Source: Parvularcula sp. LCG005 (GTDB lineage: Bacteria; Pseudomonadota; Alphaproteobacteria; Caulobacterales; Parvularculaceae). From it: 64,000 nt of DNA. The stretch's first letter is position 1. Each line of letters opens with the position of its first letter. This document shows, in pieces, positions 30,840 through 52,524 of this stretch. Made by a program: the position numbers and the translations under genes. The DNA lies in contig NZ_CP136758.1 in NCBI RefSeq assembly GCF_032930845.1, positions 2,309,001-2,373,000 on the forward strand, read 5' to 3'. The notes under the pieces were generated by a model. The model was not told where the DNA came from. It saw nothing but the letters and a program-made list of their open reading frames with translations, and did not search any database.

Positions 30840-30872
30840 ACAATAATGACCGGGAGTTGAATAAATAGTTAA
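30840..30872 (-). promoter_or_regulatory. CtrA-like box with -10 element, flgB promoter
   Basis: On the minus strand TTAA-CTATTTA-TTCA (30872-30858) is followed 12 nt later by TATTGT (30845-30840). The box differs from the CtrA consensus TTAA-N7-TTAA at one base. The 12-nt spacing is the same as in the flagellin, fliL and motB promoters. The upstream half overlaps the last codons of flbT. Confidence 0.5.
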
Positions 30873-31324
30873 CGACGTCCCGCGATGGCACACTTTGCAG
30901 CGTATGTGTCGTCGGCAACACCCGTCTGAAGAAGTCGGTCTTCAACCGTGAATAGCGACTTCAACCCCATCAGAACCCCGTAGAACCGGGCTTCCTCTGC
31001 GCAGGCGAGACAGCGAGCCAGGAGAGATTCCTCCGGCGTGCCTTCGAAAATGCTGCACAATTGCGTTAACCGGTCGATCAGATCAGTCTGACCTTCCTCG
31101 ACGCTCGTTTCAGTCGCGAGGATCATCTGCGCGACGTGGTAGGCACGGCGGACAGGTGTGGTCACTTCTTCGGGGTGCAATGCATCGCTGAGGCGCAACA
31201 CAAACACACCGTCGTCGCAGATTCTGACCGAAGACCGGCGCGGGCCGTTCTGGATCAGATTGCCGCCAACAAGAAATTTCTCGCCTGGGCGAAGGGTCAG
31301 GGTCAGTCCACCACTCATCGTCAC
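30869..31324 (-). CDS. flbT: Flagellin synthesis repressor FlbT
   Basis: Alphaproteobacterial flagellar regulator of 151 residues. FlbT in Caulobacter binds the 5' leader of flagellin mRNA and promotes its decay when the hook is not finished. MSGGLTLTLRPGEKFLVGGNLIQNG-like opening, with RSSVRICDDGVFVLR, is the family signature. The start overlaps the flaF stop as ATGA. The gene is downstream of flagellin and flaF on the same strand, so it is part of a flagellin feedback unit. Confidence 0.94.
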   Translation of the reverse strand: MTMSGGLTLTLRPGEKFLVGGNLIQNGPRRSSVRICDDGVFVLRLSDALHPEEVTTPVRRAYHVAQMILATETSVEEGQTDLIDRLTQLCSIFEGTPEESLLARCLACAEEARFYGVLMGLKSLFTVEDRLLQTGVADDTYAAKCAIAGRR

Positions 31325-31692
31325 GCTGCCTCGGCTGCCTGGCGCAGCCCTGCTGCGACGGTCCGGTTCACTTCGATCAGCGGCGACACGTCTCCATTGC
31401 CGGCCATGACGGCCTGGGCGTGGCGGATCGAAAATTTCGCAAGTCCGATCATTCGGGCCTTGACTTCATCTGTACATTGATTGTCTTTAGACATGAGGTC
31501 AGTCGCAAAAGCGGTCCAGAGAGCCGTATTGCGCTGAAGAGCATTCATCAGTTGAGGGAAGAGTTTGTCCCGCTGCGCTGCAGCCGCCTCAAGATCAGAG
31601 GCGATCTTTGTCAGGATCTGATATTCGATCTGCCGTGGCTCAGCGGTCTGACGACGCACTTGCCCATATCCGGCTTCTGCCAATGATTTCAT
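31321..31692 (-). CDS. flaF: Flagellin synthesis regulator FlaF
   Basis: FlaF-family protein of 123 residues. In Caulobacter FlaF is required for flagellin synthesis and secretion and works against FlbT. The internal RQIEYQILTKIASDLEAA and MNALQRNTALWTAFATDL match the family. The start at 31692 (MKSLAEAGYGQ) is chosen because the 16 codons upstream (from 31740) fall within the hairpin after flagellin and lack similarity. It overlaps flbT by ATGA. Confidence 0.92.
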   Translation of the reverse strand: MKSLAEAGYGQVRRQTAEPRQIEYQILTKIASDLEAAAAQRDKLFPQLMNALQRNTALWTAFATDLMSKDNQCTDEVKARMIGLAKFSIRHAQAVMAGNGDVSPLIEVNRTVAAGLRQAAEAA

Positions 31693-31703
31693 CTTTATGC
31701 CCC

Positions 31704-31745
31704 GAAAACTAGTGGAGTGGTGGGCGGCCACTGGGGCCACCCACC
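31704..31745 (-). terminator. Hairpin between flagellin and flaF
   Basis: GGTGGG-C-GGCC (31719-31729) pairs with GGCC-A-CCCACC (31735-31745), leaving one mismatch. On the minus strand GTTTTC follows after about 9 nt. It lies 11 bp after the flagellin stop. It may end most flagellin transcripts or protect their 3' ends while allowing a little flaF-flbT read-through. Confidence 0.55.
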
Positions 31746-31755
31746 GTCTTTACGC

Positions 31756-32985
31756 TTACTGGAACAGGGCCAGGATTGACGTTGGTGCATTGTTGGCAAT
31801 GCTGAGCGACTGGATACCCAGCTGCTGCTGAACCTGCAGGGCCTGCAGCTTGGCAGAGGCAGCCGTGATGTCGGCGTCGATCAGGGCAGAGTTGCCCAGT
31901 TCGAGCGAGTCGATCAGTGACATGACCCAGTCTGTTTGCAGCTCAACACGCTTCTGTGCCGAACCGAACGATGCAGCAGCATCGGTCGCAGCCGTGATCA
32001 GGTCTTCAATTGTCGACAGAGCAGAAGCCGCGTCGCCTGTGTTGATGACGCTCAGGTTACGGAGCGCATCGAGGCTACCACCGGCAGTACCGCCAGTAGA
32101 TGTGGCTTCAGCAGAACGAACAACCGTGTCGATCGAGTTGGAGTTCGTACCCACTGCGATATCAGTCCGCAGCTCGTAGTTCGAACCGTTCAGAACGACG
32201 GTAGAGCCAGACAGACCGGCAAGACCGTCAACCAGTAGGCCGAGTTCACGAAGGATATCTTCAGCAGTATCGGTCGCAGTTGCCTGATAATCCACGGTCC
32301 CAACGCCGACGTTGAGCTCGTAATTGTCACCTTCAGTCACAACCGTTGAAGCCGTCAGTGTAGCAAGTGTAGACTGTGTAGTGCCGGCAGTAGTGTTGAT
32401 AGCGCCTGTGTCAGCAAAGCCAGCGATTGTCACACCAGTACCAAGAACACCATCCACGATGGCGTTGTCGGCCGTCCCCACGCTGAGGTCAACGCCGGTA
32501 ACAGTGATCGAACCCGTTGCAACAGAACCATCAGAAGCGCGGTTGAACGATGACAGATAGCTGACATTGTTCGTGTTGTTGATGATATTGACGCCGTTCA
32601 CCTGAGCGGAGTCGACGATGTCCGTGATCTGCGAACGCAGAGCGGTAATGTCGGCCTGGATCTTGGTACGGTCGGCTTCGGTTTTGTCCTGTGCCTGAGT
32701 AACCTTGGCTTTGATTTCGACCAGAAGGTCGGTGATGCGTTCCGCAGCGTTACGACCAACGCCAACGGTTGCAGAAGCCAGGCCGAGAGATTCAGAAACA
32801 GTTTTGAACGACGCAAGGTCAGCGCCCATGGTTTTGGAAATCGACCACAGCGCGGAATTGTCCTTGGCTGTGTTGATGACTTTACCGGTCGAGATCTGGT
32901 CGTTCAGTGTGTTGAGCGATTTGTTGATGCCCCGAAGAGTCTCGAGGGCAACCATTGCCGCTGGGTTGGTGTTGATGCTGGTCAT
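31756..32985 (-). CDS. fliC: Flagellin
   Basis: Filament subunit of 409 residues. The conserved N-terminal D0/D1 part (1-140) has SLNTLNDQISTGKVINTAKD and the C-terminal D1/D0 part (320-409) ends VQQQLGIQSLSIANNAPTSIL. The variable middle (about 150-310) is Thr/Gly/Val rich and holds two similar blocks, at about 207-230 and 255-280 (STVV..G.NYEL). It is the only flagellin in the window. It is transcribed from a CtrA-like promoter through a structured leader and is followed by flaF and flbT. Confidence 0.96.
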   Translation of the reverse strand: MTSINTNPAAMVALETLRGINKSLNTLNDQISTGKVINTAKDNSALWSISKTMGADLASFKTVSESLGLASATVGVGRNAAERITDLLVEIKAKVTQAQDKTEADRTKIQADITALRSQITDIVDSAQVNGVNIINNTNNVSYLSSFNRASDGSVATGSITVTGVDLSVGTADNAIVDGVLGTGVTIAGFADTGAINTTAGTTQSTLATLTASTVVTEGDNYELNVGVGTVDYQATATDTAEDILRELGLLVDGLAGLSGSTVVLNGSNYELRTDIAVGTNSNSIDTVVRSAEATSTGGTAGGSLDALRNLSVINTGDAASALSTIEDLITAATDAAASFGSAQKRVELQTDWVMSLIDSLELGNSALIDADITAASAKLQALQVQQQLGIQSLSIANNAPTSILALFQ

Positions 32986-33010
32986 GTTATGCTCCGTACT
33001 AGGTACAACA

Positions 33011-33054
33011 AGCCTATCATCCTGACAGGATCGGGGTCAGCCCGACGCAACATC
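33011..33054 (-). promoter_or_regulatory. Structured 5' leader of flagellin mRNA
   Basis: In the roughly 85-nt leader on the minus strand, CGGG-CTGAC-CCCG and the palindrome ATCCTG-T-CAGGAT can each fold, and CTGAC can instead pair with GTCAG. Such alternative pairings upstream of the ribosome site (ACGGAG) would suit FlbT-mediated control, since FlbT acts on flagellin leaders in Caulobacter. Direct binding here is inferred. Confidence 0.4.
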
Positions 33055-33075
33055 TCTCAAGTTGCCTTCCTCGAA

Positions 33076-33108
33076 GTTATACCTACAGAAACGATAATTT
33101 GCGCTTAA
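33076..33108 (-). promoter_or_regulatory. CtrA-like box with -10 element, flagellin promoter
   Basis: Minus-strand TTAA-GCGCAAA-TTAT (33108-33094), one base from the CtrA consensus, is followed after 12 nt by TATAAC (33081-33076). The box would cover the -35 position, as in CtrA-activated promoters. Confidence 0.55.
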
Positions 33109-33110
33109 CG

Positions 33111-33434
33111 CTACATTCGGCTGCTGGAATTTTTCTCGTCAAACGCTATGCGAGTACCGTCAGGGTAGTAACCAACACTGTTTTCGCGGGTAACAAGGTT
33201 TTGCAGGCGATTCTTCAATCCGCCGACAGCGGCGGACATGATCATCAGAAGCCTTGCATTTTCATTAGCCCGTTTACGGATTATTTCCAGATCTTTCTGA
33301 TTTGTGACCGGCTGGAGGGTCTGCACAGCCTTGCTGATCCGCTGACTCACGGATTCGAGCTGATCGAAGCGGCGCGCACGCAAGAGTGCGGCCTCTTCGT
33401 CGAGAAGAAGTAGGATGTCTTTAGGCTGGCTCAT
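33111..33434 (-). CDS. FlgN-like flagellar export chaperone candidate
   Basis: Helical protein of 107 residues. Segments LLLLDEEAALLRARRFDQLESVSQRIS and EIIRKRANENARLLMIMSAAVGGLKNRL resemble FlgN-type chaperones, which hold FlgK and FlgL before export. It overlaps the rod-binding-protein gene by ATGA and lies next to flagellin. The assignment rests on helix pattern and context rather than a strict motif; it could also be another FliT/FlgN-class chaperone. Confidence 0.65.
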   Translation of the reverse strand: MSQPKDILLLLDEEAALLRARRFDQLESVSQRISKAVQTLQPVTNQKDLEIIRKRANENARLLMIMSAAVGGLKNRLQNLVTRENSVGYYPDGTRIAFDEKNSSSRM

Positions 33435-33739
33435 GCCCGGAAATCGAGACCGGGCTCCGCACGTTCAGCCCGCGCCGACAGGGCCTGGTAGAATTGCTCG
33501 GCAAGACCAAAGCCGCCCTGGTCGGCCATCTTTCCCGCAATCTGTTCGAGCAGGAAGGACGAGAACCCCTCGGCTGTCCCACCCTCTTTTGCCCCGAAGG
33601 CTTCGGCGATACCGCTGTGTTGCAGCATCTGCATGATGAACGCGGCTTCGAAATCGCGAGCCGACTGGCGCAAGGGATCGACCTGCACCGATGCTTTCGG
33701 TGCAATATCAACCGGTCCGACGGTGGCCGATATTTCCAT
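33431..33739 (-). CDS. Rod-binding protein, FlgJ N-terminal type (CheL-like)
   Basis: Protein of 102 residues made only of the FlgJ rod-binding domain (PF10135): ARDFEAAFIMQMLQHSG (about 27-43) and GFSSFLLEQIAGKMADQGGFGLAEQFYQAL (about 58-87). It lacks the muramidase domain of enteric FlgJ, as is normal in Alphaproteobacteria, so a separate enzyme must open the peptidoglycan for the rod. It is divergent from fliK and starts a two-gene unit with the FlgN-like gene. Confidence 0.85.
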   Translation of the reverse strand: MEISATVGPVDIAPKASVQVDPLRQSARDFEAAFIMQMLQHSGIAEAFGAKEGGTAEGFSSFLLEQIAGKMADQGGFGLAEQFYQALSARAERAEPGLDFRA

Positions 33740-33837
33740 GACGTGCTCCCGTATTCTTATGCCTTCCTAATTGGTTGCATCATGTAAATCATTAGTAAAC
33801 CTATTCGAGAGAAATTCAGGGTTCAGATTCATGATAA

Positions 33838-35436
33838 ATGGACAACCGACCCATGGCGTCATTCGTACCTTTTCTCTCGCCTGCCGATTCTGCCCGCCCT
33901 GCTGCGGCGCAGCCGACCTCCTCGTCGCAGGACCGGCGCGATCAGGACGCATGGAACGCGGCGATGGAGTCTGAACGGGCGCGGTCAAACGACAATGCGG
34001 TCCGCCAGAAGGATGCGCAGGCAGCCGAGCGTGCTGATCGCAGCCAGGCAGCTGACGACGCCGTGAAGACCACCAGCGACGCCTCGACCAAGTCAGCTGA
34101 GCCATCGGAGACGCGTTCAGCCACGACCGCTGAAGCACCGAAAGTCGATCGCGCGACCGGCGAAGCCGAGGACGCGGTGATCACGAAAATCGCCAATGGC
34201 GAAGCGGAAGCACCGGCGCCTGTCATTCGCACTGAACGGCCCGCTATCGCCGTGCTGCACGGAAACACAGGGACCCTGGGCCAGGAAACGGCGCAGACGG
34301 TCACACTTGCGCAACCGACAGCGGAGCAGGCACTGGCGCAACGTCCGGTCCTTGCCGAAGGCGCAGATGAAGCCGCAGCTATTGCAGCGACAAAGACCAA
34401 ATCGGCTCAAGCCCCTCTGACTGCTGAAAACGCGCAGACCGCGCCGAAGATTTCTGCGGGCGAGACCGTTGCGCAGAACGCTGAAGTGTCAGCCAGGTCC
34501 GCCAGCGCCACGGCACAGAACTCCGCCCTACCAACAACGGCTGCCGCCGATGCTGCGAAGACTGCGCGTCCGACCACTGAAAAATCCGGCGAAGCGCGCC
34601 TGACACTGACAGATATGGCGGAAAAGCTCGCCGCTGGTGAGACCAAATCAGCGCCGGGTCAGGCGACGGGCGCTGCTGCCGCCAAACTTGCTGAGGCACA
34701 GGCCATTGCCCGCACCACCACACAGGTCCCCACAGGCGCAACTGTTCAGCAGACAACGACTGAAGATAGCGCGCCTCTGACGGCGTCGACCGCGGCAGAA
34801 CCGAAAGTCGAAACAGCAACAAAGACGAGTGCTGAACTGGCGCCATCGCTGGCGCTGAAAGATCTTGCCGACGCCAAGGCGGCCGTCAAACACCTCGCTG
34901 GCCAGGCTGTGAACAAGCCGTCGGGCGATGCCTCCCCGATGGCCGAGTTGATGACATCGCGCGGCGCCGATCCAATGGGCGCCACACTGACGGCCCGCCC
35001 CCCAGCGGCGGTCCAGGCAGCGAGCGTCCCGATGATGGTCGAACCCCAGCGGCAGATTGCCGACGCCATTCGCGTCCGCAGCAATGACCAGTCAATCAGC
35101 CTGCGTCTTGATCCGCCGGATCTGGGCTCGGTCAAGATCGATCTCAATTTCGACAAGTCACGGCTTGTGACCGCCACGGTCTCTGCCGAGCAGCTCGACA
35201 CACAGGGCCTTCTGCGCCGTAACCTTGACCAGCTTCAACGGGATCTCGCCGATGCCGGTTTTGAAGGCGTGCAGATCGACTTTACCAGCCACGACACCAC
35301 AGGCGATTCCGGCTCGTCCAATGAGCGCCTTCTTGCCTTCCAGACGCCTGCTTACGAGCGCACTGTCGAGGCCCAGACCGTCCCCACCCGGCGGACACAA
35401 ATCATCACCGCAGACCGCATTGACGCAAGATTTTAA
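33838..35436 (+). CDS. fliK: Flagellar hook-length control protein FliK
   Basis: Protein of 532 residues with a long, disordered Ala/Thr/Glu-rich region (about 20-390) and a C-terminal Flg_hook domain (about 400-490): SISLRLDPPDLGSVKIDL and VSAEQLDTQGLLRRNLDQLQRDL. FliK measures hook length and signals FlhB to change export specificity; the poorly ordered part acts as the ruler. The gene is directly upstream of flgD (9 bp gap). An ATG five codons downstream (33853) is an alternative start; neither has a strong ribosome site. Confidence 0.88.
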   Translation: MDNRPMASFVPFLSPADSARPAAAQPTSSSQDRRDQDAWNAAMESERARSNDNAVRQKDAQAAERADRSQAADDAVKTTSDASTKSAEPSETRSATTAEAPKVDRATGEAEDAVITKIANGEAEAPAPVIRTERPAIAVLHGNTGTLGQETAQTVTLAQPTAEQALAQRPVLAEGADEAAAIAATKTKSAQAPLTAENAQTAPKISAGETVAQNAEVSARSASATAQNSALPTTAAADAAKTARPTTEKSGEARLTLTDMAEKLAAGETKSAPGQATGAAAAKLAEAQAIARTTTQVPTGATVQQTTTEDSAPLTASTAAEPKVETATKTSAELAPSLALKDLADAKAAVKHLAGQAVNKPSGDASPMAELMTSRGADPMGATLTARPPAAVQAASVPMMVEPQRQIADAIRVRSNDQSISLRLDPPDLGSVKIDLNFDKSRLVTATVSAEQLDTQGLLRRNLDQLQRDLADAGFEGVQIDFTSHDTTGDSGSSNERLLAFQTPAYERTVEAQTVPTRRTQIITADRIDARF

Positions 35437-35445
35437 GAGGTAGCC

Positions 35446-36057
35446 ATGGCTGAAGTCGCTGGTATCAACGCAACGGCGGTCGCCGCCACAAAAAGTGCGA
35501 CGGCAGCGAATTCGCTGACCGCGGATTTTGACGCCTTCCTCAATCTTCTGACCGCGCAGGTTCGCAACCAGGACCCGTTGTCACCGCTCGACTCAACACA
35601 GTTTGTCGAGCAGCTGGCGACGTTCTCCGGCCTTGAGCAGCAGGTGACGTCAAACAGTCACCTTGAAGAGATCACCGCGCTTCTGCGCGGGCAGTTCAGT
35701 TCAGAGGCCGGCATGGTGCTGGGCGAAACGGCGCTTAGCCCTGTGCTGACGATCGAGAACGCCTTTGATGCACTGGACGTTGTTGCACCCGGCGTGGAAT
35801 CCGGTCGCCTCGTCGTGACCGATGCCGATGGCGAAGTCGTCTATCAGGGCATCCCAGCCAATTCCTGGTCCTGGGACGGTACAGACGGGACCGGCGCGCC
35901 CCTTCCCGCAGGCTCCTACAAACTCTCGATCCAGTCCGGCGAAGAGCTGTATCCCGCCTATGCCAGCGGCATTGTCCAGCAGGTGATTTCGACCACCTCA
36001 GGCGACCGCATTGCGTTTGCGCCAGGCGTGACAAGCGGCATTTTCGAAATTCAGTAA
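35446..36057 (+). CDS. flgD: Flagellar hook assembly protein FlgD
   Basis: Hook cap protein of 203 residues. The N-terminal FlgD motif reads FLNLLTAQVRNQDPLSPLDS with FVEQLATFSGLEQQ (about 28-66). The C-terminal Tudor and FlgD-Ig parts include WSWDGTDGTGAPLPAGSYKL. AGAGGT lies before the ATG. It needs FliK upstream for control of hook length and FlgE (50234-51535) as its client. A bidirectional terminator follows. Confidence 0.95.
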   Translation: MAEVAGINATAVAATKSATAANSLTADFDAFLNLLTAQVRNQDPLSPLDSTQFVEQLATFSGLEQQVTSNSHLEEITALLRGQFSSEAGMVLGETALSPVLTIENAFDALDVVAPGVESGRLVVTDADGEVVYQGIPANSWSWDGTDGTGAPLPAGSYKLSIQSGEELYPAYASGIVQQVISTTSGDRIAFAPGVTSGIFEIQ

Positions 36058-36088
36058 GCAGCCTTTCGGCTTCTCCATGCACAACAAG

Positions 36089-36117
36089 AAAGGGCTCCCA
36101 GGAAGGGAGCCCTTTTT
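36089..36117. terminator. Bidirectional terminator between flgD and the fliL-like gene
   Basis: AAGGGCTCCC (36090-36099) pairs with GGGAGCCCTT (36105-36114) around an AGGAA loop, with five T in a row on the plus strand and an A-rich stretch on the other side. It serves the converging flgD (+) and fliL-like (-) genes. Confidence 0.88.
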
Positions 36118-36160
36118 CACGTTGGACAGATGTGCAGACGATCGGAAGAACCGGCGGGCC

Positions 36161-36670
36161 TTATTGATCCTGGCGCGCGAAGTCGACGATCAGCACATCG
36201 CCGCCCTTATCCTCAAGAAGCGCGTGCGAGGTTTCGTTCAGACGATTGCGGATCTCTGAATAGACTTCCGGTTCGGTGATGTCCCCGGCGAAATAGCCAT
36301 CATGAGACAGCCCCATCAGCGTCATCATGAAGGTGTCGCGAAGACGAGGTTCACGTGCCCGCATGCGGTCGATTTCGGCGGCGTCGTTGATCTCGATCTG
36401 AAGAGAGATCATGACGAGTGATCCGACCTCGTCATTCCGCATGACGGGAACGATGAAATTGCGCTGAAAACCGAAATAGGCGACCGTGTCGCCCCCGCCT
36501 TCGCCGCCGCCATGACCGTCATCCCCCTCGCCGCTCACCTCAGCGACCGACCCTTTGGTAGCCGCCGCCTCAGGCGCCGCATCGCTGGATCCACCGCGCA
36601 GCGTCATGGCTGCGAAGCCGGCACCGCTAATGGCAATAAGGAGCACGAGGATGGGGAGAATTTTTTTCAT
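36161..36670 (-). CDS. FliL-like flagellar basal-body-associated protein (second copy)
   Basis: Inner-membrane protein of 169 residues. One membrane helix (about 4-22) is followed by a Gly/Asp/His-rich linker (44-62) and a periplasmic stomatin-like FliL domain: GSLVMISLQIEINDAAEIDRMRAREPRLRDTFM-type sequence and a C-terminal LLEDKGGDVLIVDFARQDQ. FliL proteins ring the stators MotA/MotB and raise torque. It is the last gene of the motA-flgF-flgG-flgA-flgH unit, which supports a stator role. A more conventional FliL is at 42312-42815, so this strain has two. Confidence 0.75.
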   Translation of the reverse strand: MKKILPILVLLIAISGAGFAAMTLRGGSSDAAPEAAATKGSVAEVSGEGDDGHGGGEGGGDTVAYFGFQRNFIVPVMRNDEVGSLVMISLQIEINDAAEIDRMRAREPRLRDTFMMTLMGLSHDGYFAGDITEPEVYSEIRNRLNETSHALLEDKGGDVLIVDFARQDQ

Positions 36671-36672
36671 GA

Positions 36673-37353
36673 TCAGAACGGTATCAGAATGTCGAGCAGG
36701 CGTGAGCCTCTCCGTGGACGAGTAGACTGAGCAATCTGGCCCTGTCCGGTGTAAACGATATCCGCCGCCGCGACCTTGTCATGCGTAATGGTATTGTCAC
36801 GGCTGATATCATCAGGCCGGACAACGCCGTTCAGACGCAGGTCCCGTGTTTCATTATTCACCCGAATACGCTGCGTACCGACGACCACAAGGTGACCGTT
36901 CGGCAGCTTTTCAACCACCTGGGCTGCGAGGCGAAGCGTAATCTTTTCCTGCCGGGCGATTGAGCCATTGCCGTTGGCGGCATTGCTGCGCGACAGTGCG
37001 ACAGCAGGTGACAGTGTTGCCCCCTCTGGCAGCGTGCCGTCCGCATATTCAGGCAGGCCGAAAAGCGCGTTGACGGAGAAATCTTCCTGGTTCGAACGGC
37101 TGCGCTGCAGCGAGTTCTGCATTTCAGCCTCTTCGTCCACCGAGACGATGACGGTCAGAATATCCCCCACGTTCCGTGCACGGCGATTGCCGAACAGGGA
37201 TTGCGGCTCCTGATTCCACAGCGATGCGGTATAGACCGGCACATAGGTCTGTTCAGACACAATGCGTTCAGGTGCAGGCGCGCTGACGGGCGTCATGCGC
37301 GAAGCGCAGGCGCAGAGCGGCAGTAGCGTGGTGATGAGAAGAATATTTTTCAT
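36673..37353 (-). CDS. flgH: Flagellar L-ring protein FlgH
   Basis: Outer-membrane L-ring lipoprotein of 226 residues with lipobox LCAC (Cys16). SLFGNRRARNVGDILTVIVSVDEEAEMQN, GNGSIARQEKITLRLAAQVVEKLPNGHLVV-type and GVVRPDDISRDNTI segments match FlgH. The start overlaps the flgA stop as ATGA. It forms the outer ring with the P-ring protein FlgI (46701-47801). Confidence 0.96.
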   Translation of the reverse strand: MKNILLITTLLPLCACASRMTPVSAPAPERIVSEQTYVPVYTASLWNQEPQSLFGNRRARNVGDILTVIVSVDEEAEMQNSLQRSRSNQEDFSVNALFGLPEYADGTLPEGATLSPAVALSRSNAANGNGSIARQEKITLRLAAQVVEKLPNGHLVVVGTQRIRVNNETRDLRLNGVVRPDDISRDNTITHDKVAAADIVYTGQGQIAQSTRPRRGSRLLDILIPF

Positions 37354-38509: not shown

Positions 38510-38523
38510 TGCCCTTGCCCTTA

Positions 38524-40100: not shown

Positions 40101-40123
40101 GGTTACTTCCTGTACGGTCGAGA

Positions 40124-40153
40124 TGTATAATTCGTTAATCGCCCGCTTAACAA
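40124..40153 (-). promoter_or_regulatory. motA promoter with GTTAA-N8-TTAAC inverted repeat
   Basis: GTTAA (40134-40138) and TTAAC (40147-40151) form an inverted repeat with an 8-bp spacer. On the minus strand TATACA (40129-40124) could be the -10 and TTGTTA (40153-40148) the -35. The repeat resembles a CtrA site with one extra base between half-sites. Confidence 0.4.
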
Positions 40154-42311: not shown

Positions 42312-42815
42312 TCACTTCATCAGAAAGTCGGTAATCAGAATACCGAACACTTTATCTTCGCCCAGTGTCGCCTGGGCTTGCGCCAGAAGAGTCTCTTTCA
42401 GCTGAGGCATCGCCTCTGGATCACTGATCATCTTACTGTCAACGGTCCGCATACGCTCCAGAAACCGATCGCGAAGCCGCAGAAACTGTACGTCTGTCAG
42501 CCCTTGCGACTCTTCCGGGGTCGCCAGGGCAATTGTCATTCTAAGGTGCTTCGCGCCTGCGTCAGGCCCTAAAGTGACAGTTATCGGCTCCAGCGTCACA
42601 TAATTCGCAGCACGGAGTGTCAATTCCTCAATATCTACTGGTTCGGGGGCGACCGCAAACTCGCAGGAGCCGACAGCGCTCTCGGCCGGTGCCGACGCCA
42701 TCCAGACCATGCCAAACGTTGCCCCTGCCGCCACAACGGCCAGAGGCAGGATCGACATGATGCCACCGCTCTTAGCCGGTTGGGTTGGTGTCTCTTGCGA
42801 TTTATCGTCAGCCAT
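42312..42815 (-). CDS. fliL: Flagellar basal-body-associated protein FliL
   Basis: Inner-membrane protein of 167 residues with one membrane helix (about 22-42) and a periplasmic domain: YVTLEPITVTLGPDAGAKHLRMTIAL and a C-terminal GEDKVFGILITDFLMK, as in canonical FliL. It supports stator assembly and torque. It heads a three-gene unit with the DUF6468 gene and motE and is divergent from fliF. A CtrA-like promoter lies at 42867-42899. Confidence 0.88.
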   Translation of the reverse strand: MADDKSQETPTQPAKSGGIMSILPLAVVAAGATFGMVWMASAPAESAVGSCEFAVAPEPVDIEELTLRAANYVTLEPITVTLGPDAGAKHLRMTIALATPEESQGLTDVQFLRLRDRFLERMRTVDSKMISDPEAMPQLKETLLAQAQATLGEDKVFGILITDFLMK

Positions 42816-42866: not shown

Positions 42867-42899
42867 GTTAAAGCCTCGTATTGGTAAAGGGTTTATTAA
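42867..42899 (-). promoter_or_regulatory. CtrA-like box with -10 element, fliL promoter
   Basis: Minus-strand TTAA-TAAACCC-TTTA (42899-42885) is followed after 12 nt by TTTAAC (42872-42867). One base differs from TTAA-N7-TTAA. The same box could act on the divergent fliF gene, but no good -10 is visible in that direction. Confidence 0.5.
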
Positions 42900-44468: not shown

Positions 44469-44744
44469 ATGACTGAACTAGCAAAAAGCGGCCAACGCCC
44501 GACCCTCTACGAAGTTGAACTGCCGGTGACCATTGTGGTCGGCCGCACCACCCTGTCGCTCAACGATCTTGCGGACTGGAAACCGGACAGCGTCGTCTCC
44601 CTCGACGCCAAATCCGACCAGCCGCTGGAATTGTGCGTCAACGGAAAAGTGGTGGCGACCGGCGAATTGTGTGAAGGCGATCAGGGCCCTGATTCGTTGG
44701 CCATTCGCATTCTCGATATCAAACAGGACGCAGAAACAGCGTGA
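44469..44744 (+). CDS. fliN: Flagellar motor switch protein FliN (SpoA domain only)
   Basis: C-ring protein of 91 residues consisting of one SpoA domain: LPVTIVVGRTTLSLNDLADWKPDSVVSLD and LCVNGKVVATGELCEGDQG. This is the minimal FliN. It lies 21 bp after fliF and its stop overlaps the GTG of fliP. It should pair with the divergent FliM at 52565-53470. Confidence 0.9.
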   Translation: MTELAKSGQRPTLYEVELPVTIVVGRTTLSLNDLADWKPDSVVSLDAKSDQPLELCVNGKVVATGELCEGDQGPDSLAIRILDIKQDAETA

Positions 44745-45505: not shown

Positions 45506-46614
45506 ATACCGAGGCAGCAAAAGTACCGTCCGGCCAACTGACCACAAGCGACCAGCAAAAGCAGCTCGCCCTCCCCTCCCGCACACCCGCGCAGAAGGCC
45601 GCGGCCGTGCTCGCGTTGCTTGAGCCCGATACGCTGCACGCTCTCGCGGGCAAACTGCCCGATCACCACAAAGAGCGCCTCGTCCATTCGCTCCGTGCCC
45701 TGCGCAGTGTGCCCCAGGATGAACAGCGCGCCATTGCCAAGGAATTCGCCCAGCGCCTCGCGCGGGAGCAGAAGGCCGTCCGCGGTGACGAAGAGACCAT
45801 CGACCGTGTCACCAACTCCCTCTTCCTTGAAGACATTGGCGAGGCGAAGACAGCGGATCTCTCCGAGCTGCTCAGCCAGATGAACACGGAAGAGACGATC
45901 TGGCAGAAAGTTGCCGGATTGCCGATGAAGAAGCTGACGGCGTTTTTTGAGAACAAGCCGGCCGCCATTCTGTCCATTGCCCTTCGCCAGCTGCCCGAGG
46001 AAACCGCGAGCGAACTGGCGGGCATTCTGGGCGTCGACATGGTCACCGATGGCATCGTCCAGATTGCGACGACGGGCGCGGTCAATCCGCTGGCGCTCGA
46101 AGCCGTTGAGGAGCTTGTCGAAAAGACCCTGCTGAACAAGGGGGATGACCTCGAAGAAGCGAGCGGCGGTGGCGGTCAGAATGCCGACAAGGTTGCGGGT
46201 CTTCTGAACCGCATGACGTCAAGCCGCCGGGAAACCGTTCTTGAAGCGCTACGCAGTGAACTGAGTGATGACGATCTTGCTGAGATCGCCGCCAAGGTTC
46301 TCAGCTTTGAAGCTATCGAATACCGCCTGCCCCGCAACGCCATTCCTGTGGTGTTCCGCGAATGTCCTGAGAAGGAGCTGCTGACAGCCGTCAAATATGC
46401 GCTCGACCAGAACAATTCCGTGGGCGAGTATCTGCTGCGCAATATCTCCCAGCGCCTCGCGGCCCAGTATCGCGAGACCATGGAGAGCATGGGCGAGATT
46501 CAGCAGGAAGTGGGCGAGAAAGCGCAATCGACCATCATCTGTCGTGTCCTCGAACTGGCAGAAGAAGAACGGGTCGTTCTTCTGGCCCCAGAGGATGATC
46601 CGACAGCATCATAA
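45502..46614 (+). CDS. fliG: Flagellar motor switch protein FliG (divergent)
   Basis: C-ring protein of 370 residues. The C-terminal domain aligns with enteric FliG: LLTAVKYALDQNNSVGEYLLRNISQRLAAQYRETMESMG-type sequence. The lysine (K264 in E. coli) and NISQR arginine (R281) remain, but positions D288, D289 and R297 read E, T and Q. The EHPQ motif of the middle domain is degenerate (ENKP). The start overlaps the fliP stop as ATGA. Linkage to FliP rather than directly to FliF is unusual. A terminator follows. Confidence 0.87.
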   Translation: MNTEAAKVPSGQLTTSDQQKQLALPSRTPAQKAAAVLALLEPDTLHALAGKLPDHHKERLVHSLRALRSVPQDEQRAIAKEFAQRLAREQKAVRGDEETIDRVTNSLFLEDIGEAKTADLSELLSQMNTEETIWQKVAGLPMKKLTAFFENKPAAILSIALRQLPEETASELAGILGVDMVTDGIVQIATTGAVNPLALEAVEELVEKTLLNKGDDLEEASGGGGQNADKVAGLLNRMTSSRRETVLEALRSELSDDDLAEIAAKVLSFEAIEYRLPRNAIPVVFRECPEKELLTAVKYALDQNNSVGEYLLRNISQRLAAQYRETMESMGEIQQEVGEKAQSTIICRVLELAEEERVVLLAPEDDPTAS

Positions 46615-46640
46615 GGCCCCTTCCCCGGAGCACAGCACAG

Positions 46641-46673
46641 ACAAAAAAGAGGCGGCCCTTGAGCCGCCTTTTT
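46641..46673. terminator. Bidirectional terminator between fliG and flgI
   Basis: AGGCGGC (46650-46656) pairs with GCCGCCT (46663-46669), flanked by six A on one side and five T on the other. It serves the converging fliG (+) and flgI (-) units. Confidence 0.88.
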
Positions 46674-46700
46674 CGTGTTGCCGTTTCGTTGGCAGGGTGA

Positions 46701-47801
46701 TTATTGCAGGATCAGGTCGGCGTGCAGCGCACCGGCAGCCTTCATGCTTTTCAGAATGTCGATGATCTCACGCGGCGTCACGCCCAGCGAATTCAGTGCC
46801 GTGACGAGATCCGACAGCGACACGGTGTCCTCTACCAGCGCGACATTACCCGTCGGGCCCTGATCAACTGAAATACTAGTCCGCGGCAGAACGGCCGTCC
46901 GCCCTTCCGAGAACGGACCTGGCTGTGATGCCGTCGGCGTTTCTGCGATGGCAATAGACAGATTGCCCTGGGCAATAGCGACGGCAGACAACCGAACTTC
47001 ATTCCCCAGCACAATCGTGCCCGAACGCTGATCAATCACAACACGCGCTGGCAGATCGGGTACGAGACTGACGGTTTCAATTTCACTCAGGACGCGGGCG
47101 GGATTGACGCCGGCATCGAACCGCAGACGGACGGTCCCCGGGTCAGTCATCAAAGCGGCACCCGGACCAAGCCGCGCATTCAGCGCATCTTCAATCCGCG
47201 ATGCAGTTGTAAAACTGGGTGTTTTCAATGCCAGATCAACGCTGGTCAGAGAGCCGAAGGCAAAATCGACTTCGCGCTCAACCCGCGCGCCGCCGGAAAT
47301 CGTGCCTGTCGTTGGCGTGCCTTGTGTAATACTGGCGGCGTCTCCCTCAGCGCGGAAACCGCTGATCAGAACGGGCCCTTGGGCCACGGCATAGACATCG
47401 CCATTGGCCGCGGTCATTGGCGTCATGACCAGCATGCCGCCGGTCAGGTCGGTGGCGTCGCCAATCGATGCGACGGTCACGTCAATCTGGGAGCCCGACC
47501 GTGCGAATGGTGGCAGTGAGGTGGTGACAAGCACCGCCGCTACGTTATCGGGCCGGAAATTCTCATCCTGAACGTTCACGCCCAGGCGCTGCAGCAGGCT
47601 GGCCAGCGCTTCCTCGGTATAGGGCGAATTCCGGATCGTGTCGCCCGTGCCGTTCAGACCGACGACAAGGCCGTACCCGATCAGATCGTTGCCCCTGACC
47701 CCCTCAACCGTCACAAGGTCCTTCAGACGCACCTCACCCGCTTGTACCGGCGAGAAGATCATCAAAAGCCCTGCAAGGGCGGCGATCAGTTTATGTGTCA
47801 C
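46701..47801 (-). CDS. flgI: Flagellar P-ring protein FlgI
   Basis: Periplasmic P-ring protein of 366 residues with a signal peptide ending near residue 21 (SPVQAG). VRLKDLVTVEGVRGNDLIGYGLVVGLNGTGDT-type opening, NVAAVLVTTSLPPFARSGSQIDVTVASIGDA and the C-terminal LVTALNSLGVTPREIIDILKSMKAAGALHADL match the family. It overlaps flgL by ATGA and is the last gene of flgE-flgK-flgL-flgI. Confidence 0.97.
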   Translation of the reverse strand: MTHKLIAALAGLLMIFSPVQAGEVRLKDLVTVEGVRGNDLIGYGLVVGLNGTGDTIRNSPYTEEALASLLQRLGVNVQDENFRPDNVAAVLVTTSLPPFARSGSQIDVTVASIGDATDLTGGMLVMTPMTAANGDVYAVAQGPVLISGFRAEGDAASITQGTPTTGTISGGARVEREVDFAFGSLTSVDLALKTPSFTTASRIEDALNARLGPGAALMTDPGTVRLRFDAGVNPARVLSEIETVSLVPDLPARVVIDQRSGTIVLGNEVRLSAVAIAQGNLSIAIAETPTASQPGPFSEGRTAVLPRTSISVDQGPTGNVALVEDTVSLSDLVTALNSLGVTPREIIDILKSMKAAGALHADLILQ

Positions 47802-48781
47802 CGAATGTAATCCGTAAACGTAAGCCGCGCCAATCGCGCCGTTACAGTATACGCTGCTTCGAGCTGCGCTTCTAGTGTCTGTACACGTGTTGCAGCCTCT
47901 AAAGCGTCCACACCGATCAAATTATCGCTTGTTTCGGTCAGGATAATCTTTTCCTGCGCATTGATGTCGAGATTTTCCTCGATCATGCGCTGCTGGCGGC
48001 CAATATCCGCCTGAAGAGCAACCACGGCGGACTCGCCGCGACCCAATTGCTGGACCGCCTGCTCCGCCCAGTCAAAGTCAACGCCGTCCGGAATGAATGC
48101 CAGACGGGCGAGGCCTTCAAGGGTGTCCTTGAACGCTTGATCATCGGCACGAATGCCGTAGTCCACGACCGAACCATTGGACAGCTCAACCGATGCGGCA
48201 AAACCGCTGCCGCCCTCGTAAATATCGGTTTCAAAGCCACCGCCTGGTGCGAAATAGTCCGCGATCGCCGTGTTGATCGTCGCCGCATCGGTCGCGCTGC
48301 CGATTGCCGCTTCCAGCCCTGCCAGCAGAGCTGCCGGCTTGGCCATGGCATCATTACTGACTTCATCGCCAGCAAACAGGCTGCGACCGCCGTGGCGCGT
48401 GTTCAGGAACGTCATGACCGCTTCGATGTTGGAGCGCGCAGTCGCTTGAGTCTGCGTACGACCGACCTCGCCGGTCTGCAGAAGGTTCTGCACCGCCTCC
48501 GTCGAAAATCCGTCGAGTACGGAGCGAACGGAATCAAGTGACACCGACGTCTGCGCGAGGCGATTTTCAGCCAGACCCAGACGGCCCTTGGCTGCATCAA
48601 TATCAACAAGCGCCTTGCTGACGAGATTGTACTCTCCGACCCGATCCGCGAGAGCACGCGAAGGGTTTGCCTTCTGGCCGGTTACCATCTCCGTCGAGGC
48701 CTGTGCCAGCTGTTCGCGGGCCAGGTTGACGACACGGTAGAACGAAGAAAGTCGGCCTGCATCAGGATATGTAGAAATCAT
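47798..48781 (-). CDS. flgL: Flagellar hook-filament junction protein FlgL
   Basis: Junction protein of 327 residues with flagellin-like ends: REQLAQASTEMVTGQKANPSRAL near the N-terminus and LEAATRVQTLEAQLEAAYTVTARLARLTFTDYI at the C-terminus. The ATG overlaps the flgK stop by one base. It joins the hook to the filament with FlgK. Confidence 0.93.
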   Translation of the reverse strand: MISTYPDAGRLSSFYRVVNLAREQLAQASTEMVTGQKANPSRALADRVGEYNLVSKALVDIDAAKGRLGLAENRLAQTSVSLDSVRSVLDGFSTEAVQNLLQTGEVGRTQTQATARSNIEAVMTFLNTRHGGRSLFAGDEVSNDAMAKPAALLAGLEAAIGSATDAATINTAIADYFAPGGGFETDIYEGGSGFAASVELSNGSVVDYGIRADDQAFKDTLEGLARLAFIPDGVDFDWAEQAVQQLGRGESAVVALQADIGRQQRMIEENLDINAQEKIILTETSDNLIGVDALEAATRVQTLEAQLEAAYTVTARLARLTFTDYIR

Positions 48782-50226
48782 CAGATAAGCCCCATCAGTT
48801 CATCAATCATCTGCCCGGCAATCTGGATGACGCGGGCATTTGCTGCGTATGCCTGTTCTATAAGGAGCAATTGTTGAAGTTCCGTATCCGTATCAACACC
48901 AGTGGCCGCAAATTCTGCTTCTGTTGCGGCTTCAGCACGCGTTGAAGCGAAAAGTGAAGATTCGGAATAATCACGTTCCTGGAAGCTGATGTTCGATGAC
49001 ATGTCCGCTGCCAGCTCGGATGCACTCCGTGTACCTGATGTTGCCAGCGCACCAATGGTCGTACGTTGACTTGTAAAGGCGCTGATATAGCGGTTCAGTT
49101 GATCGCCATTGCCTGTCGCGCCAGGAGATGTCGCGCCAATACCGTCCCGCAGACGATAGGTGGCCCCGCCTTTTTGCGGATCGACGGCAGCATTGATCTG
49201 CAGCGAGTTGGCGATACCCAGCGGCACACCGGTTGGCGGCGTCGTGGTGCCATCGGTGAAAAGACCTGATTGCCCAGCCGTCTTCGTCGGATCCACGGTA
49301 TCATCCGCAAACCGATTGATGAGATCTGTCGCCAGAGCGTCAAGCTGGTCCTGGAAATCAGGCAGAATTGTATCGCGGACTTCGAAGAGACCGGCGAGTT
49401 CACCGGACCGCGTCTGCTGGCCTGCGCCACCACCCGGCGTGATATCGACGCCATTGATGCTGAGACCAGAGAGCGGCGAACCAAGTGTCTGGGTGCGACC
49501 GACATTGCCCGCCGGCGTAAAGTCCAGATATTGGGCCCGTTCGGTCAGGAGGAAGGCACCGCCATCGGTAATCAAATTGATCCCGTTGTCGCGAATTTGC
49601 ATCGTGACCGGAATTTTCTCGTTGATCGAGTTCACCAGACGCTGACGCTCGTCGATAACTTCTGGTGTCGTCTTTGATGCCGGCAGCGCGTTCAGCTCTT
49701 CAAGGCGCTTCAAGGAGGCATTCACCTCTTCAACGGCCAGTCCGATCTGCCGGTCTGCTGTCGCGCGCTGCTGGTCTGCGGCCCGCGACATGTTTTGTAT
49801 ATTGGTGGCCAGAGCCCGTCCCTTGTCGACAACGCCGCGCAGAAGAAGATCGGATTCCGGTGTCGCCGCCGCATCGCGAAGGGCGTTCTCAAAGTTGGCA
49901 TAAAGGCTGAACAAGCCATTATCCGCACCGGGTTCGCCAACCAGTGTCATGAGTTTCTCGGCCGCCGATGCGCGGGTCGATGCAAACGAGCTGTCGGCAT
50001 CGAGACGCAGGCGTTCGGTCGTCAGAAATTCGTTCGTGACGTTGCTGATATTGGCAACGCGCACGCCGTTGATCGATGGACCGACGCGACGCTCTTCGAC
50101 GGTGACCACGCGACGCGTGTAACCATCCGTATTCGCATTCGCGATATTTTCCGCCGTGGCCCGAGCGCGGATGGATGCCGCGGTCAGGCCGGAAGTGGCG
50201 ATGGAGAGCGTGCTTGAGAAACTCAT
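48781..50226 (-). CDS. flgK: Flagellar hook-associated protein FlgK
   Basis: Hook-associated protein of 481 residues. The N-terminal rod-type motif AENIANANTDGYTRRVVTV (about 25-43) and the C-terminal QLLLIEQAYAANARVIQIAGQMIDELMGLI helix are FlgK hallmarks. It lies 7 bp after flgE and overlaps flgL by one base. Confidence 0.95.
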   Translation of the reverse strand: MSFSSTLSIATSGLTAASIRARATAENIANANTDGYTRRVVTVEERRVGPSINGVRVANISNVTNEFLTTERLRLDADSSFASTRASAAEKLMTLVGEPGADNGLFSLYANFENALRDAAATPESDLLLRGVVDKGRALATNIQNMSRAADQQRATADRQIGLAVEEVNASLKRLEELNALPASKTTPEVIDERQRLVNSINEKIPVTMQIRDNGINLITDGGAFLLTERAQYLDFTPAGNVGRTQTLGSPLSGLSINGVDITPGGGAGQQTRSGELAGLFEVRDTILPDFQDQLDALATDLINRFADDTVDPTKTAGQSGLFTDGTTTPPTGVPLGIANSLQINAAVDPQKGGATYRLRDGIGATSPGATGNGDQLNRYISAFTSQRTTIGALATSGTRSASELAADMSSNISFQERDYSESSLFASTRAEAATEAEFAATGVDTDTELQQLLLIEQAYAANARVIQIAGQMIDELMGLI

Positions 50227-50233
50227 GTTTTAA

Positions 50234-51535
50234 TCACCGAATGATGTTGGCGGTCTCTTGGAGAATTTCATCAACGGTCTGAATAATCTTCGCGTTGGAT
50301 GAATAGGCGCGCTGGGTCTCGATCAGGCTGGTCAGCTCTGATGCGATGTCCGTGGTGGATTCCATAAGGGCAAAGCCTTGAATTTCACCAACAGGGCCGT
50401 CACCGGCATCCCAGAAGTACACGTCGCCACTTGACTGGCTCAGACGATAGGACTGGGAATTCGCTGCGAGAAGACCGTTGGGGTTCGGAACGTCAGCGAC
50501 AGGGATCTTGTAGATCGTCCGGCGGTAGCCAGTGTCATAAATGGCCTGAACATTGCCGCCCGCATCGACTTCAACGGTCGACAGGTTGCCGACAGCGGAG
50601 CCGTCTTTAGTCAGGTTGTAAGGCGCAAAGTCATTGGCATACTGCGTAATACCGGCGCGGTCATTTGGACGACCAACGAACACCTGAACCGGACCGCTTG
50701 GCAGATCGACAGTGATCTCACCTGTCTCGTCGCTATAGGTCAGGTTGTTGGTGACGTTGTTGATTGCACCGCCATTGGACTGGGTATCGAGGAAGTCAAC
50801 GTCGAAGCTGGAGACGCTGACTGGTGTACCAGTCGAGTTGTCAAACAGCTCAACATTCCAGGTATTGGATGGCGAACCGGAAGCCGGCACCGTCGGCGTG
50901 AAAACACCGGTCATTGTCTGTGAGCGACCAAAATTGTCGAAATATTCGATCGACAGCTCATAGGTCGCACCAGAACCATCGGCGCTCGTCGCATCGGCTG
51001 GCAGGTTGACGCCAAGGCCGATATTCTGGGTCGGCGTTGATTCATATTGAGATACGTTGACGCGAACAGCCTCAAGATCAGCACCGCCCTGGCGGGAGAT
51101 CGAGCCCAGTGCGCCTGTCCCATCGACGGGCCAGCCCATCAGGAACAGACCGCTTGGGGTCCGCAGATAGCCATTCTCATCGGCGCTGAAGGAACCGGTA
51201 GAGGTCAGCAGCAGCTCACGATTGGTGGCCTGAGGATCAGCACCCGCACGATCCGTGACGGGGAGGAAGCCTTGACCGGCGACGGCAATATCCGTCGCGT
51301 TGCCGGTGGAGACGAGCGAGCCTTCTTCATCGACCTGAGTGTAGGATTGAACGCGAACACCGCCGGCCGAATAAGAATTCGTGGTGCTTTTGATGACCAT
51401 GGACTGGAAGTCCGTGACCTTGCGTTTGTAACCGTAAGTATCTGAATTCGCGATGTTATCCGCGATAGTGCCGAGCCGGGCCGAATTGGCCGACAGGCCC
51501 ATCACGCCAGCATTCAGAGAAGAAGATATCGTCAT
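50234..51535 (-). CDS. flgE: Flagellar hook protein FlgE
   Basis: Hook subunit of 433 residues. TIADNIANSDTYGYKRKVTDFQSM at the N-terminus, AVAGQGFLPVTDRAG at about 85 and the C-terminal TDIASELTSLIETQRAYSSNAKIIQTVDEIL helix identify it. It leads flgE-flgK-flgL-flgI. In the 90-bp upstream gap a GTTAA-N8-TTAAG element (51587-51604) resembles the one before motA. Confidence 0.95.
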   Translation of the reverse strand: MTISSSLNAGVMGLSANSARLGTIADNIANSDTYGYKRKVTDFQSMVIKSTTNSYSAGGVRVQSYTQVDEEGSLVSTGNATDIAVAGQGFLPVTDRAGADPQATNRELLLTSTGSFSADENGYLRTPSGLFLMGWPVDGTGALGSISRQGGADLEAVRVNVSQYESTPTQNIGLGVNLPADATSADGSGATYELSIEYFDNFGRSQTMTGVFTPTVPASGSPSNTWNVELFDNSTGTPVSVSSFDVDFLDTQSNGGAINNVTNNLTYSDETGEITVDLPSGPVQVFVGRPNDRAGITQYANDFAPYNLTKDGSAVGNLSTVEVDAGGNVQAIYDTGYRRTIYKIPVADVPNPNGLLAANSQSYRLSQSSGDVYFWDAGDGPVGEIQGFALMESTTDIASELTSLIETQRAYSSNAKIIQTVDEILQETANIIR

Positions 51536-51610
51536 ACGAGCGCTCCTGCATTGTAAACGTCTTGGAGCGATGATGACGAAACTCGGTTAATGCATCCTTA
51601 TAAGAAGGCT

Positions 51611-51634
51611 AAAACCTGAGATAAATTATCTCAG
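51611..51634 (-). terminator. Terminator overlapping the motB stop codon
   Basis: CTGAGATA (51616-51623) and TATCTCAG (51627-51634) form an 8-bp stem with loop AAT; GTTTTAG follows on the minus strand. The stem contains the motB stop codon. It separates motB from flgE. Confidence 0.7.
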
Positions 51635-52456
51635 TTGGCTTGGCGTATCGTTTATTGATGCCGAACTGGTCGCGCGCGCTTTCGACGGATCGAGCAGAAC
51701 AATGGCAATGCGGCGGTTGATCGGGTCATTTGGTCCCTCGCCGATCGGCTCACGGTCGGCCCGACCGGACACTTCCCTGATCTTGCGCGGCATGACTCCG
51801 GCTGCGATCAGCATCCGTCTCGCCGTATTGGCGCGATCAGCGGACAGCTCCCAGTTCGTGTAGCCCTGATTATTCGCATAGGCGACGCCATCGGTGTGCC
51901 CCGTAATCTTGATCGCGGCACCGGTCTTCTCGACCGCAATTGCTGTGGCGGCGATAAGCTTGTTGAGGTCATCAGAAGCCATTGCCGACCCGGTCCCAAA
52001 CAAGGGCTTGCCCGCGACATCGACGAGCTCGATCAATGTGCCTTCTTCTGTCTCGGTGACGCGGACGCGGCCTTCGGCATCCGTAATGCCCGCCTGTTCT
52101 GCAATCTTCGCGATTTCCGCCTTCAGGTCTTCGGTCGCGGGAATGACGGTATCCTGACGGATCGCCAAATAGTCATTCGACTGCGAGAAATTTTCCTCCG
52201 TCAGAACACTGTCGCCGTTCAGGGCATCGGTTCCGCCACCGGAAACGGCGGCGATCGGAATGGATGGATTGAAATAGTCGGCCAGACCTTTGCGTTGCTC
52301 TTCGGTCGTGGCATTCAGCAGCCACATGAGCAGGAAGAACGCCATCATGGCGGTCACGAAGTCGGCATAGGCGACTTTCCAGGCGCCGCCATGGTGGCCG
52401 GCGGCCTTGATGACCTTTTTCCGTTTGATGATGATCGGTGCTTGATTAGCCGACAT
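51626..52456 (-). CDS. motB: Flagellar motor stator protein MotB
   Basis: Stator protein of 276 residues. A single membrane helix (about 27-48) contains the proton-carrying aspartate D32 in YADFVTAMMAFFLLMWLL. A plug region follows (about 52-65), then a C-terminal OmpA/peptidoglycan-binding domain with ITGHTDG, SADRANTARRMLIAAG and GRADREP. The pattern is that of a proton-driven motor. It is encoded apart from motA, divergent from fliM. Confidence 0.95.
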   Translation of the reverse strand: MSANQAPIIIKRKKVIKAAGHHGGAWKVAYADFVTAMMAFFLLMWLLNATTEEQRKGLADYFNPSIPIAAVSGGGTDALNGDSVLTEENFSQSNDYLAIRQDTVIPATEDLKAEIAKIAEQAGITDAEGRVRVTETEEGTLIELVDVAGKPLFGTGSAMASDDLNKLIAATAIAVEKTGAAIKITGHTDGVAYANNQGYTNWELSADRANTARRMLIAAGVMPRKIREVSGRADREPIGEGPNDPINRRIAIVLLDPSKARATSSASINDTPSQLR

Positions 52457-52490
52457 GGTTAGCGTCCCAAAAACTTTTTACGCGGTAATC

Positions 52491-52524
52491 AATATAGTCA
52501 CACTTGTGTAAATCCCCCTTTAAC
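52491..52524 (-). promoter_or_regulatory. CtrA-like box with -10 element, motB promoter
   Basis: Minus-strand GTTAA-AGGGGGA-TTTA (52524-52509) is followed after 12 nt by TATATT (52496-52491). One base differs from the CtrA consensus. It lies between the divergent motB and fliM genes. Confidence 0.55.

Follow-up and report, generated by a model that had tools for sequence, protein, structure and literature searches.

How are the flagellar genes of Parvularcula sp. LCG005 transcribed, and does its flagellin share a promoter class with other genes of its cluster or answer to sigma-54, as the flagellins of Caulobacter do? We examined this question in a window of 64,000 nucleotides (nt; bases 2309001–2373000 of a genome that forms one contig of 3,084,878 bases), in which profile and sequence searches of the encoded proteins place a flagellar cluster at 25.5–53.5 kilobases (kb). 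An earlier note on this DNA had described a common minus-strand layout upstream of flgB, flagellin, fliL and motB, consisting of a perfect distal TTAA half-site, a proximal half-site with one mismatch, exactly 12 nt and a −10 element, and had read the half-sites as boxes for the regulator CtrA. Our analysis leads to the same reading: we put the probability that these sites are CtrA-activated promoters of a flagellar cluster like fla2 of Rhodobacter at roughly 85%.

All four sites are present as described (positions are those of the window). The predicted promoters read TTAA-ctattta-TTCA-12 nt-TATTGT before flgB (30872..30840, overlapping the stop codon of flbT), TTAA-gcgcaaa-TTAT-12 nt-TATAAC before flagellin (33108..33076), TTAA-taaaccc-TTTA-12 nt-TTTAAC before fliL (42899..42867), where the divergent fliF may share the site, and TTAA-aggggga-TTTA-12 nt-TATATT before motB (52523..52491), between the divergent motB and fliM. 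Each agrees with TTAA-N7-TTAA at seven of the eight half-site letters. Counting a spacer of 12, the hexamer and about 6 nt more, transcription would be expected to start 23–24 nt from the end of each site.

The constant geometry is unlikely to be due to chance, as had been claimed. With the spacer left free between 8 and 18 nt, 4 of 10 upstream regions of the cluster shared spacer 12, whereas in 5,000 dinucleotide shuffles the largest number of regions on one spacer was 0 (3,822 times), 1 (1,154 times), 2 (23 times) or 3 (once), and never 4. The loose form of the pattern has five matches in the window against 0.27 expected; the fifth (33105, plus strand) overlaps the distal TTAA of the flagellin site and is not a candidate promoter. 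Five of the 25 genome-wide matches fall within the 21.7-kb stretch that holds the sites, which is 0.7% of the genome (binomial probability 8.1e-7, or 2.7e-5 counting four), and the 20 elsewhere are divided between the inside of mechanically called open reading frames (8) and the spaces between them (12).

We then compared orthologous clusters from five genomes of the same genus, mapped by tblastn, with not every gene lying within every stretch; ortholog sites were chosen by eye from the upstream regions, and the flgB rows of two genomes (G007 and G002) are flgE regions and were left unused. Upstream of fliL, TTAAC-N6-TTTACC is present in all five relatives and in a second, diverged flagellar cluster of the same genome (similar order, about 2.57–2.60 Mb, FliF 47% identical). 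Its spacer letters AAACCC are unchanged in three of the five, and 12 nt past the site three relatives have TTTAAC, one ATTAAC and one ATTTAC. The motB site recurs as TTAA-N7-TTTAC in four of five relatives and in the second cluster, and TTAA-N7-TTA(T/G) lies 5′ of flagellin, between −123 and −127, both here and in each of the four relatives with a flagellin in reach. The weakest site, that of flgB, is plainly kept in G008 and G006. All four units share the layout, yet four is an undercount: flgJ, flgE and motA are likewise preceded by conserved minus-strand sites of this kind. The flgJ site, which the earlier note missed (TTTAC-N6-TTTAC, 33784..33799), is found in all six clusters with flgJ mapped (the window, G006, G005, G002, G008 and the second cluster). 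Upstream of flgE, ATAA-N7-TTAAC (51586..51601) is followed 11 nt on by a −10-like CATCAT; NNAA-N7-TTAAC occurs in five of seven clusters, with TTAG-N7-TTAAC in the second cluster and none in G008. The motA site (TTAAC-N6-TACAT, ~40123..40138) is without a good −10 match at 11–12 nt, and TTAAC-N6-TAYA is kept in 5/5 clusters with motA mapped.

Averaged over the 19 ortholog sites belonging to the four genes, 2.21 of 6 letters agreed with TATAAT at spacer 11 and 2.53 at spacer 12; every other spacer between 6 and 19 gave 1.05–1.95. Since these matches peak at 11–12, the spacing is 11–12 nt, and the rule of exactly 12 nt holds inside the window and gives way in relatives. No such peak was seen at 11–12 on the fliF and fliM sides of the divergent sites, so their bidirectional use rests on the precedent of Rhodobacter sphaeroides; the fliK side of the flgJ/fliK site does peak, at 11 (2.83, n = 6). 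This flgJ/fliK intergenic site is letter-identical in G006.

The scan of the genome that the earlier note had proposed singled out the fliL and motB promoters when the matrix came from relatives, and did not with the bare consensus (25 matches of the loose pattern against 31 for its reversed control). The matrix held 19 foreign sites (5 fliL, 4 motB, 4 flgJ, 4 flagellin and 2 flgB) and none from this genome; besides both of its own clusters, we left out all motA and flgE sites and two eroded ones, motB of G002 (degraded) and flgB of G005 (half lost). With this sequence-only model, a whole-genome scan that scored 100 first-look candidates, and whose E-values are rough, returned two matches at E ≤ 10, with fliL first (E 0.13) and motB second (E 0.925). 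Unfiltered, the window scan gave seven matches, of which the top five were fliL, motB, flagellin, flgJ and flgB; our own log-odds matrix produced an identical top five among 127,934 window positions, with flgJ at rank 4. When the orthologs of each gene were removed in turn, the ranks were 5 for fliL, 6 for flagellin, 8 for motB and 19 for flgB. The fliL, motB and flagellin sites thus recognise each other as one class, and flgB more weakly, which supports a shared promoter class to which flgB would belong least securely.

That CtrA acts on these sites is suggested by the encoded protein, its conserved core and the geometry of mapped CtrA promoters, which together support the boxes proposed in the earlier note; the window sites are probably bound by it. 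The genome encodes CtrA at 1897495–1898184, 81% identical to the Caulobacter crescentus protein, and residues 147–203, the DNA-binding core, are identical to those in the C. crescentus sequence that we used for comparison. Apart from this protein, the closest CtrA relatives that the genome encodes reach 33–35% identity. One of them (L025) adjoins open reading frames that we take to resemble PhoU and a Trk-type transporter, and it is therefore probably PhoB.

Mapped CtrA promoters provide close parallels; here and below, papers are cited for those parts of their text that bear on these systems. In R. sphaeroides, activity of the corresponding fla2 promoters is lost without ctrA and, in those that were mutated, on changing the half-sites; evidence for the architecture at fliL2, fliF2, flgB2 and flgE2 came from mapped starts, mutagenesis or deletion of ctrA, flgE2p being CtrA-dependent in Table 3 (PMC6180460). 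From motB to flgB, the fla2 cluster largely matches this one in its genes and their arrangement; its best CtrA-site matches lie at motB2, flgE2, motA2, fliF2–fliL2, flgB2–fliI2 and flgJ2–fliK2, a single site serves fliL2 and fliF2, and the distance from site end to start is 23–24 nt, equal to the geometry predicted here (PMC6180460). The two differ in that the half-site gap is 6 bp at flgB2 and fliI2 and 7 in the window, in that the window favours TTTAC or TTAT as its proximal half, and in that the R. sphaeroides flagellin lies on a plasmid, its promoter not being among those tested in the cited part (PMC6180460). The full-site promoters of C. crescentus likewise carry TTAA-N7-TTAA near −35, the activator position, and at ctrA P2 the 5′ nucleotide of the full site is at −39 (PMC4287350). 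Promoter architecture of this kind was thus already known from relatives of Parvularcula.

Elsewhere in the genome, the canonical TTAA-N7-TTAAC has 19 matches, counted by strand and place, against 11 for the reversed control. Some of these matches precede genes for a ribonucleotide reductase and a histidine kinase, and TTAA-N7-TTAA precedes that for a single-domain response regulator of 120 amino acids, which we take to be DivK-like. Judged by their upstream letters, the response regulator and the ribonucleotide reductase (L046, L092) are likely further CtrA targets.

We assessed the class of the flagellin promoter with upstream regions from flagellins of the family, order and class of the window genome. 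GTDB places Caulobacter in the same order as Parvularcula; NCBI taxonomy places Parvularcula in Parvularculales. Flagellins were labelled window-type or Caulobacter-type by length and by how the gene was found, not by a tree, and the likeness of the latter to those of Caulobacter is our presumption. Of the 115 genomes covered by the class-wide search, 16 gave matches, and most of these were to other flagellin types. We excluded genes without a recognised flagellin start (L128, L137, L140, L142, L161, L167, L171 and L182, and L126 in one comparison), a false start (L133) and duplicates (L162–L165). The stricter of two layouts, TTAA-N7-(TTAT, TTAG, TTTA, TTCA, TACA and like)-N11/12-TA, was defined after viewing the sequences, and the controls used the same definition.

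A scored CtrA-type layout was present in 38/47 window-type flagellins of the family (null mean 2.9, maximum 6) and 5/16 from other families of the order (null 1.1, maximum 3), with 1/20 for the Caulobacter type (null 1.7) and 3/18 for others (null 0.9, maximum 3). The stricter layout occurred in 33/47 and 11/16 of the two window-type groups and in 0/20 and 0/18 of the remaining two (null means 0.15, 0.14, 0.13 and 0.09); its spacer measured 11 nt in 26 family members and 12 nt in 7, and every one of the 11 from the order had 11 nt. Within the strict family set, proximal halves read TTAT (27) or TTAG (6), to which the scored set adds TTAA (5). The sigma-54-like element YGG-N9-TGC stood at −100 to −75 in 0/47 and 0/16 window-type flagellins, in 16/20 of the Caulobacter type and in 4/18 others; the corresponding counts anywhere in 260 nt were 12/47, 2/16, 16/20 and 8/18. 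A scored sigma-54 element was at chance in the window type (7/47, null 5.1; 2/16, null 2.3) and present in 16/20 of the Caulobacter type (null 3.4). With the strict layout in 33/47 and 11/16, and the sigma-54-like element at its usual place in 0/63 compared with 16/20, the earlier note is supported in putting flagellin in the CtrA-type class rather than under sigma-54. This split by flagellin type holds across families, though related sequences are not independent.

Among the order's Caulobacter-type flagellins (L170–L189), 18 are readable, and in 13 of these a sigma-54-like element scoring at least 8 lies 84–90 nt before the start codon. L145, a Caulobacter-like flagellin within the family that we kept as its own group, has a sigma-54 element (1/1) and no CtrA-type layout (0/1). 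Dependence of flagellin on CtrA is already known in other species: in Phaeobacter inhibens, mutation of the CtrA phosphorelay lowers fliC 64-fold (PMC12363192), and the flagellin genes of S. meliloti are stated to be directly activated by CtrA (PMC6180460). Caulobacter flagellins depend on RpoN and FlbD (PMC3930126); the window flagellin has a CtrA-type site.

Several observations weigh against CtrA-activated promoters, and some of them favour chance, that is, AT-rich matches selected after the fact. The pattern was picked by eye, the genome as a whole shows no enrichment of its loose form, half-site pairs are less remarkable once the −10 is left aside (3/10 regions, matched by 66 of 2,000 shuffles, with the flgB region shortened), and flgB drops to rank 19 without its own orthologs. 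The motB site of G002 is degraded and the flgB site of G005 has lost its proximal half. The position expected to be −11 is A in three of the four promoters and T at fliL, whereas this A is invariant in R. sphaeroides. Even at its best spacers the −10 match is only modest, and for flgJ, motA and flgE (n = 15) its mean is 2.33 at 11, 1.47 at 12 and 2.0 at 13 and 16. The stricter layout is missing from 14/47 window-type flagellins of the family and 5/16 of the order. In Dinoroseobacter shibae, a strict TTAA-N7-TTAAC scan gave five flagellar genes, flagellin not included (PMC4046655); a strict-consensus scan would likewise miss the window flagellin because its proximal half is TTAT. Against chance stand the shuffle test, the independent matrix and conservation across genera, which largely refute it already for fliL, motB and flagellin and leave it scarcely credible overall.

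It is rather unlikely that another flagellar regulator of the OmpR family, of the Rem or FtcR kind, binds the sites in place of CtrA. The proximal half in the cluster is indeed mostly TTTAC, TACA or TTAT rather than canonical TTAAC, and the 19 canonical matches elsewhere would make the flagellar set a distinct subset; the sites nevertheless retain TTAA-N7 and the CtrA geometry, and the other candidates in the genome are the distant relatives noted above, one of them probably PhoB by its presumed neighbours. For flagellin, a Caulobacter-like arrangement in which sigma-54 and an FlbD-like activator drive transcription and the CtrA-like site is incidental strikes us as very improbable. The genome does encode rpoN and two proteins with full-length matches to the sigma-54 activator domain, which we take to be NtrX and TacA-like, and YGG-N9-TGC lies somewhere within 260 nt of 12/47 and 2/16 window-type flagellins. 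Neither activator gene is in the cluster, however, the four TGGC-N7-TTGC matches in the window (3.59 expected) include none near flagellin, and both the scored element, at chance in the window type, and the positional counts at −100 to −75 speak against sigma-54.

On the favoured reading of CtrA-activated promoters, phosphorylated CtrA would bind both half-sites (about −39 to −25), replace a proper −35 element and recruit the housekeeping RNA polymerase to a −10 element 11–12 nt downstream. Flagellin would belong to the same class with a lower-match proximal half (TTAT or TTAG), and this weaker site may delay or lower its transcription. The −35 site of Caulobacter pilA is also a lower-affinity CtrA site at a late filament gene, which would make the timing parallel; pilA has three further upstream sites (PMC11264516), and at the window flagellin one site was looked for and found. 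Flagellin timing might then be completed on the mRNA by FlbT and FlaF acting on a hairpin leader.

The genes for both proteins are at hand. The flagellin gene (31756..32985, minus strand, 409 amino acids; Flagellin_N 1.7e-23, Flagellin_C 3.7e-14) is followed by the FlaF gene (31321..31740, minus strand; PF07309 1.6e-29) and, two genes downstream, by the FlbT gene (30869..31324, minus strand; PF07378 1.8e-28), the presumed reader of the leader. If transcription starts near 33069 as predicted, the leader (33014..33069, minus strand) would fold into three hairpins, at 33065–33047, 33046–33030 and 33028–33014, the third of the kind RUC-AGRAN-GAY. Caulobacter has a flagellin leader bound by FlbT (Anderson and Gober 2000, as cited in PMC3930126 and PMC4347634), and here flbT lies near flagellin with its structured leader. 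The hairpin recurs in 19/47 window-type leaders of the family and 14/16 of the order (null means 0.18 and 0.04), compared with 3/20 of the Caulobacter type (0.03) and 2/18 others (0.05). In 28 distinct hairpin rows, one from another family of the class, the helix was 95.5% paired against 87.3% in shuffles, with a covariation score of 0.310 against 0.150 (0/500 shuffles), and slid versions were all below 50% paired except that at −3 (80.4%). As the search pattern fixes UC..GA and R..Y, mainly the outermost pair is independent evidence; it is paired in 23/28 rows, with both sides changed in 8. Tandem hairpins with AGGA, AGAA or GGA loops also occur in flagellin leaders among L060–L189.

Other results speak against the hairpin. 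Two of five covariation measures were no better than shuffles (both-side-changed pairs, 223/500; further pair types, 114/500), and folding of the window leader as a whole is not unusual (z −1.22). A control loop core (AARA or GAT), which overlaps GGAT loops, occurred in 45/70 leaders against 42/70 for the tested core, in a set where several loci give more than one leader and one gene (L065 = L101) is absent. The reversed core AGG/AAGA, which overlaps AGGA loops, is nearly as common as the core itself (23 and 29 leaders in the family, 14 each in the order); in order leaders it forms 12 hairpins against 10. Rfam has no family at gathering score in 24000–56000, with a chance-level match alone at the leader, and we did not find the hairpin described in Rfam or in the cited parts of the literature on flagellin leaders and FlbT (PMC4347634, PMC3930126, PMC8781033, PMC12363192); the table in PMC4347634 lists no sequence selectivity for FlbT. 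An alternative is a palindrome acting at the DNA level; the asymmetric, strand-fixed loop speaks for RNA. CsrA, suggested as a reader by the GGA loops, is ruled out, as 0/41 genomes including this one encode it by a search that found it in Escherichia coli, B. subtilis and T. maritima. We propose the RUC-AGRAN-GAY hairpin as a candidate FlbT element.

The identities of the genes behind the promoters vary in firmness. The fliL gene (42312..42815, minus strand; PF03748 4.5e-11) and motB (51626..52456, minus strand), whose identity holds in searches, contrast with flgB (30467..30802, minus strand), weakly identified with a product barely above the Pfam cut-off for the rod family and below those of NCBIfam. 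The cluster further comprises flhB, fliR, flhA, flgC, flgJ, flgD, motA, fliF, fliP, fliG, flgI, flgL, flgK, flgE and a fliM/N-like gene. It encodes two FliL-like proteins, at 42312–42815 and at 36161–36670 (minus strand), the latter slightly below the Pfam cut-off. Adjoining it are a radical SAM protein gene and, at 54728–56949 (minus strand) and 57303–58235 (plus strand), genes that presumably resemble EgtD/EgtB of ergothioneine biosynthesis. The genome's second cluster (L016, L017) has CtrA-type sites 5′ of fliL, motB, flgJ and flagellin, the last being TTTA-N7-TTAA-12 nt-TAAATT. In relative G005, the flagellin open frame (G005:C1:1571112-1573154) has 685 amino acids against 409 in the window. 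Relative G007 has TGGCNC-N5-TTGC about 80 nt upstream of its second fliF (L018 9172–9186, plus strand), and its paralogous cluster might be partly under sigma-54 by this motif. A FliF 43% identical to that of the window occurs in a record titled Oceanobacillus sp. (L004), a title that may be wrong for the contig.

What could be new is the division of flagellins across the order, together with the hairpin of the leader. We tentatively suggest, as a possibility short of an even chance, that one flagellin type of the order is wired to CtrA through a sub-consensus site (TTAA-N7-TTAT/TTAG/TACA), with RUC-AGRAN-GAY as the RNA recognition element of FlbT, and the Caulobacter-like type to sigma-54; flagellin timing in the first type would then come from CtrA affinity and FlbT, not from FlbD. 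If so, the flagellin wiring of Caulobacter, the relative studied in most depth, which uses sigma-54 with FlbD, would not be general among its near kin, a second flagellin type within the order would be predicted to answer directly to CtrA, and the leader hairpin would offer a specific RNA on which target recognition by FlbT could be examined.

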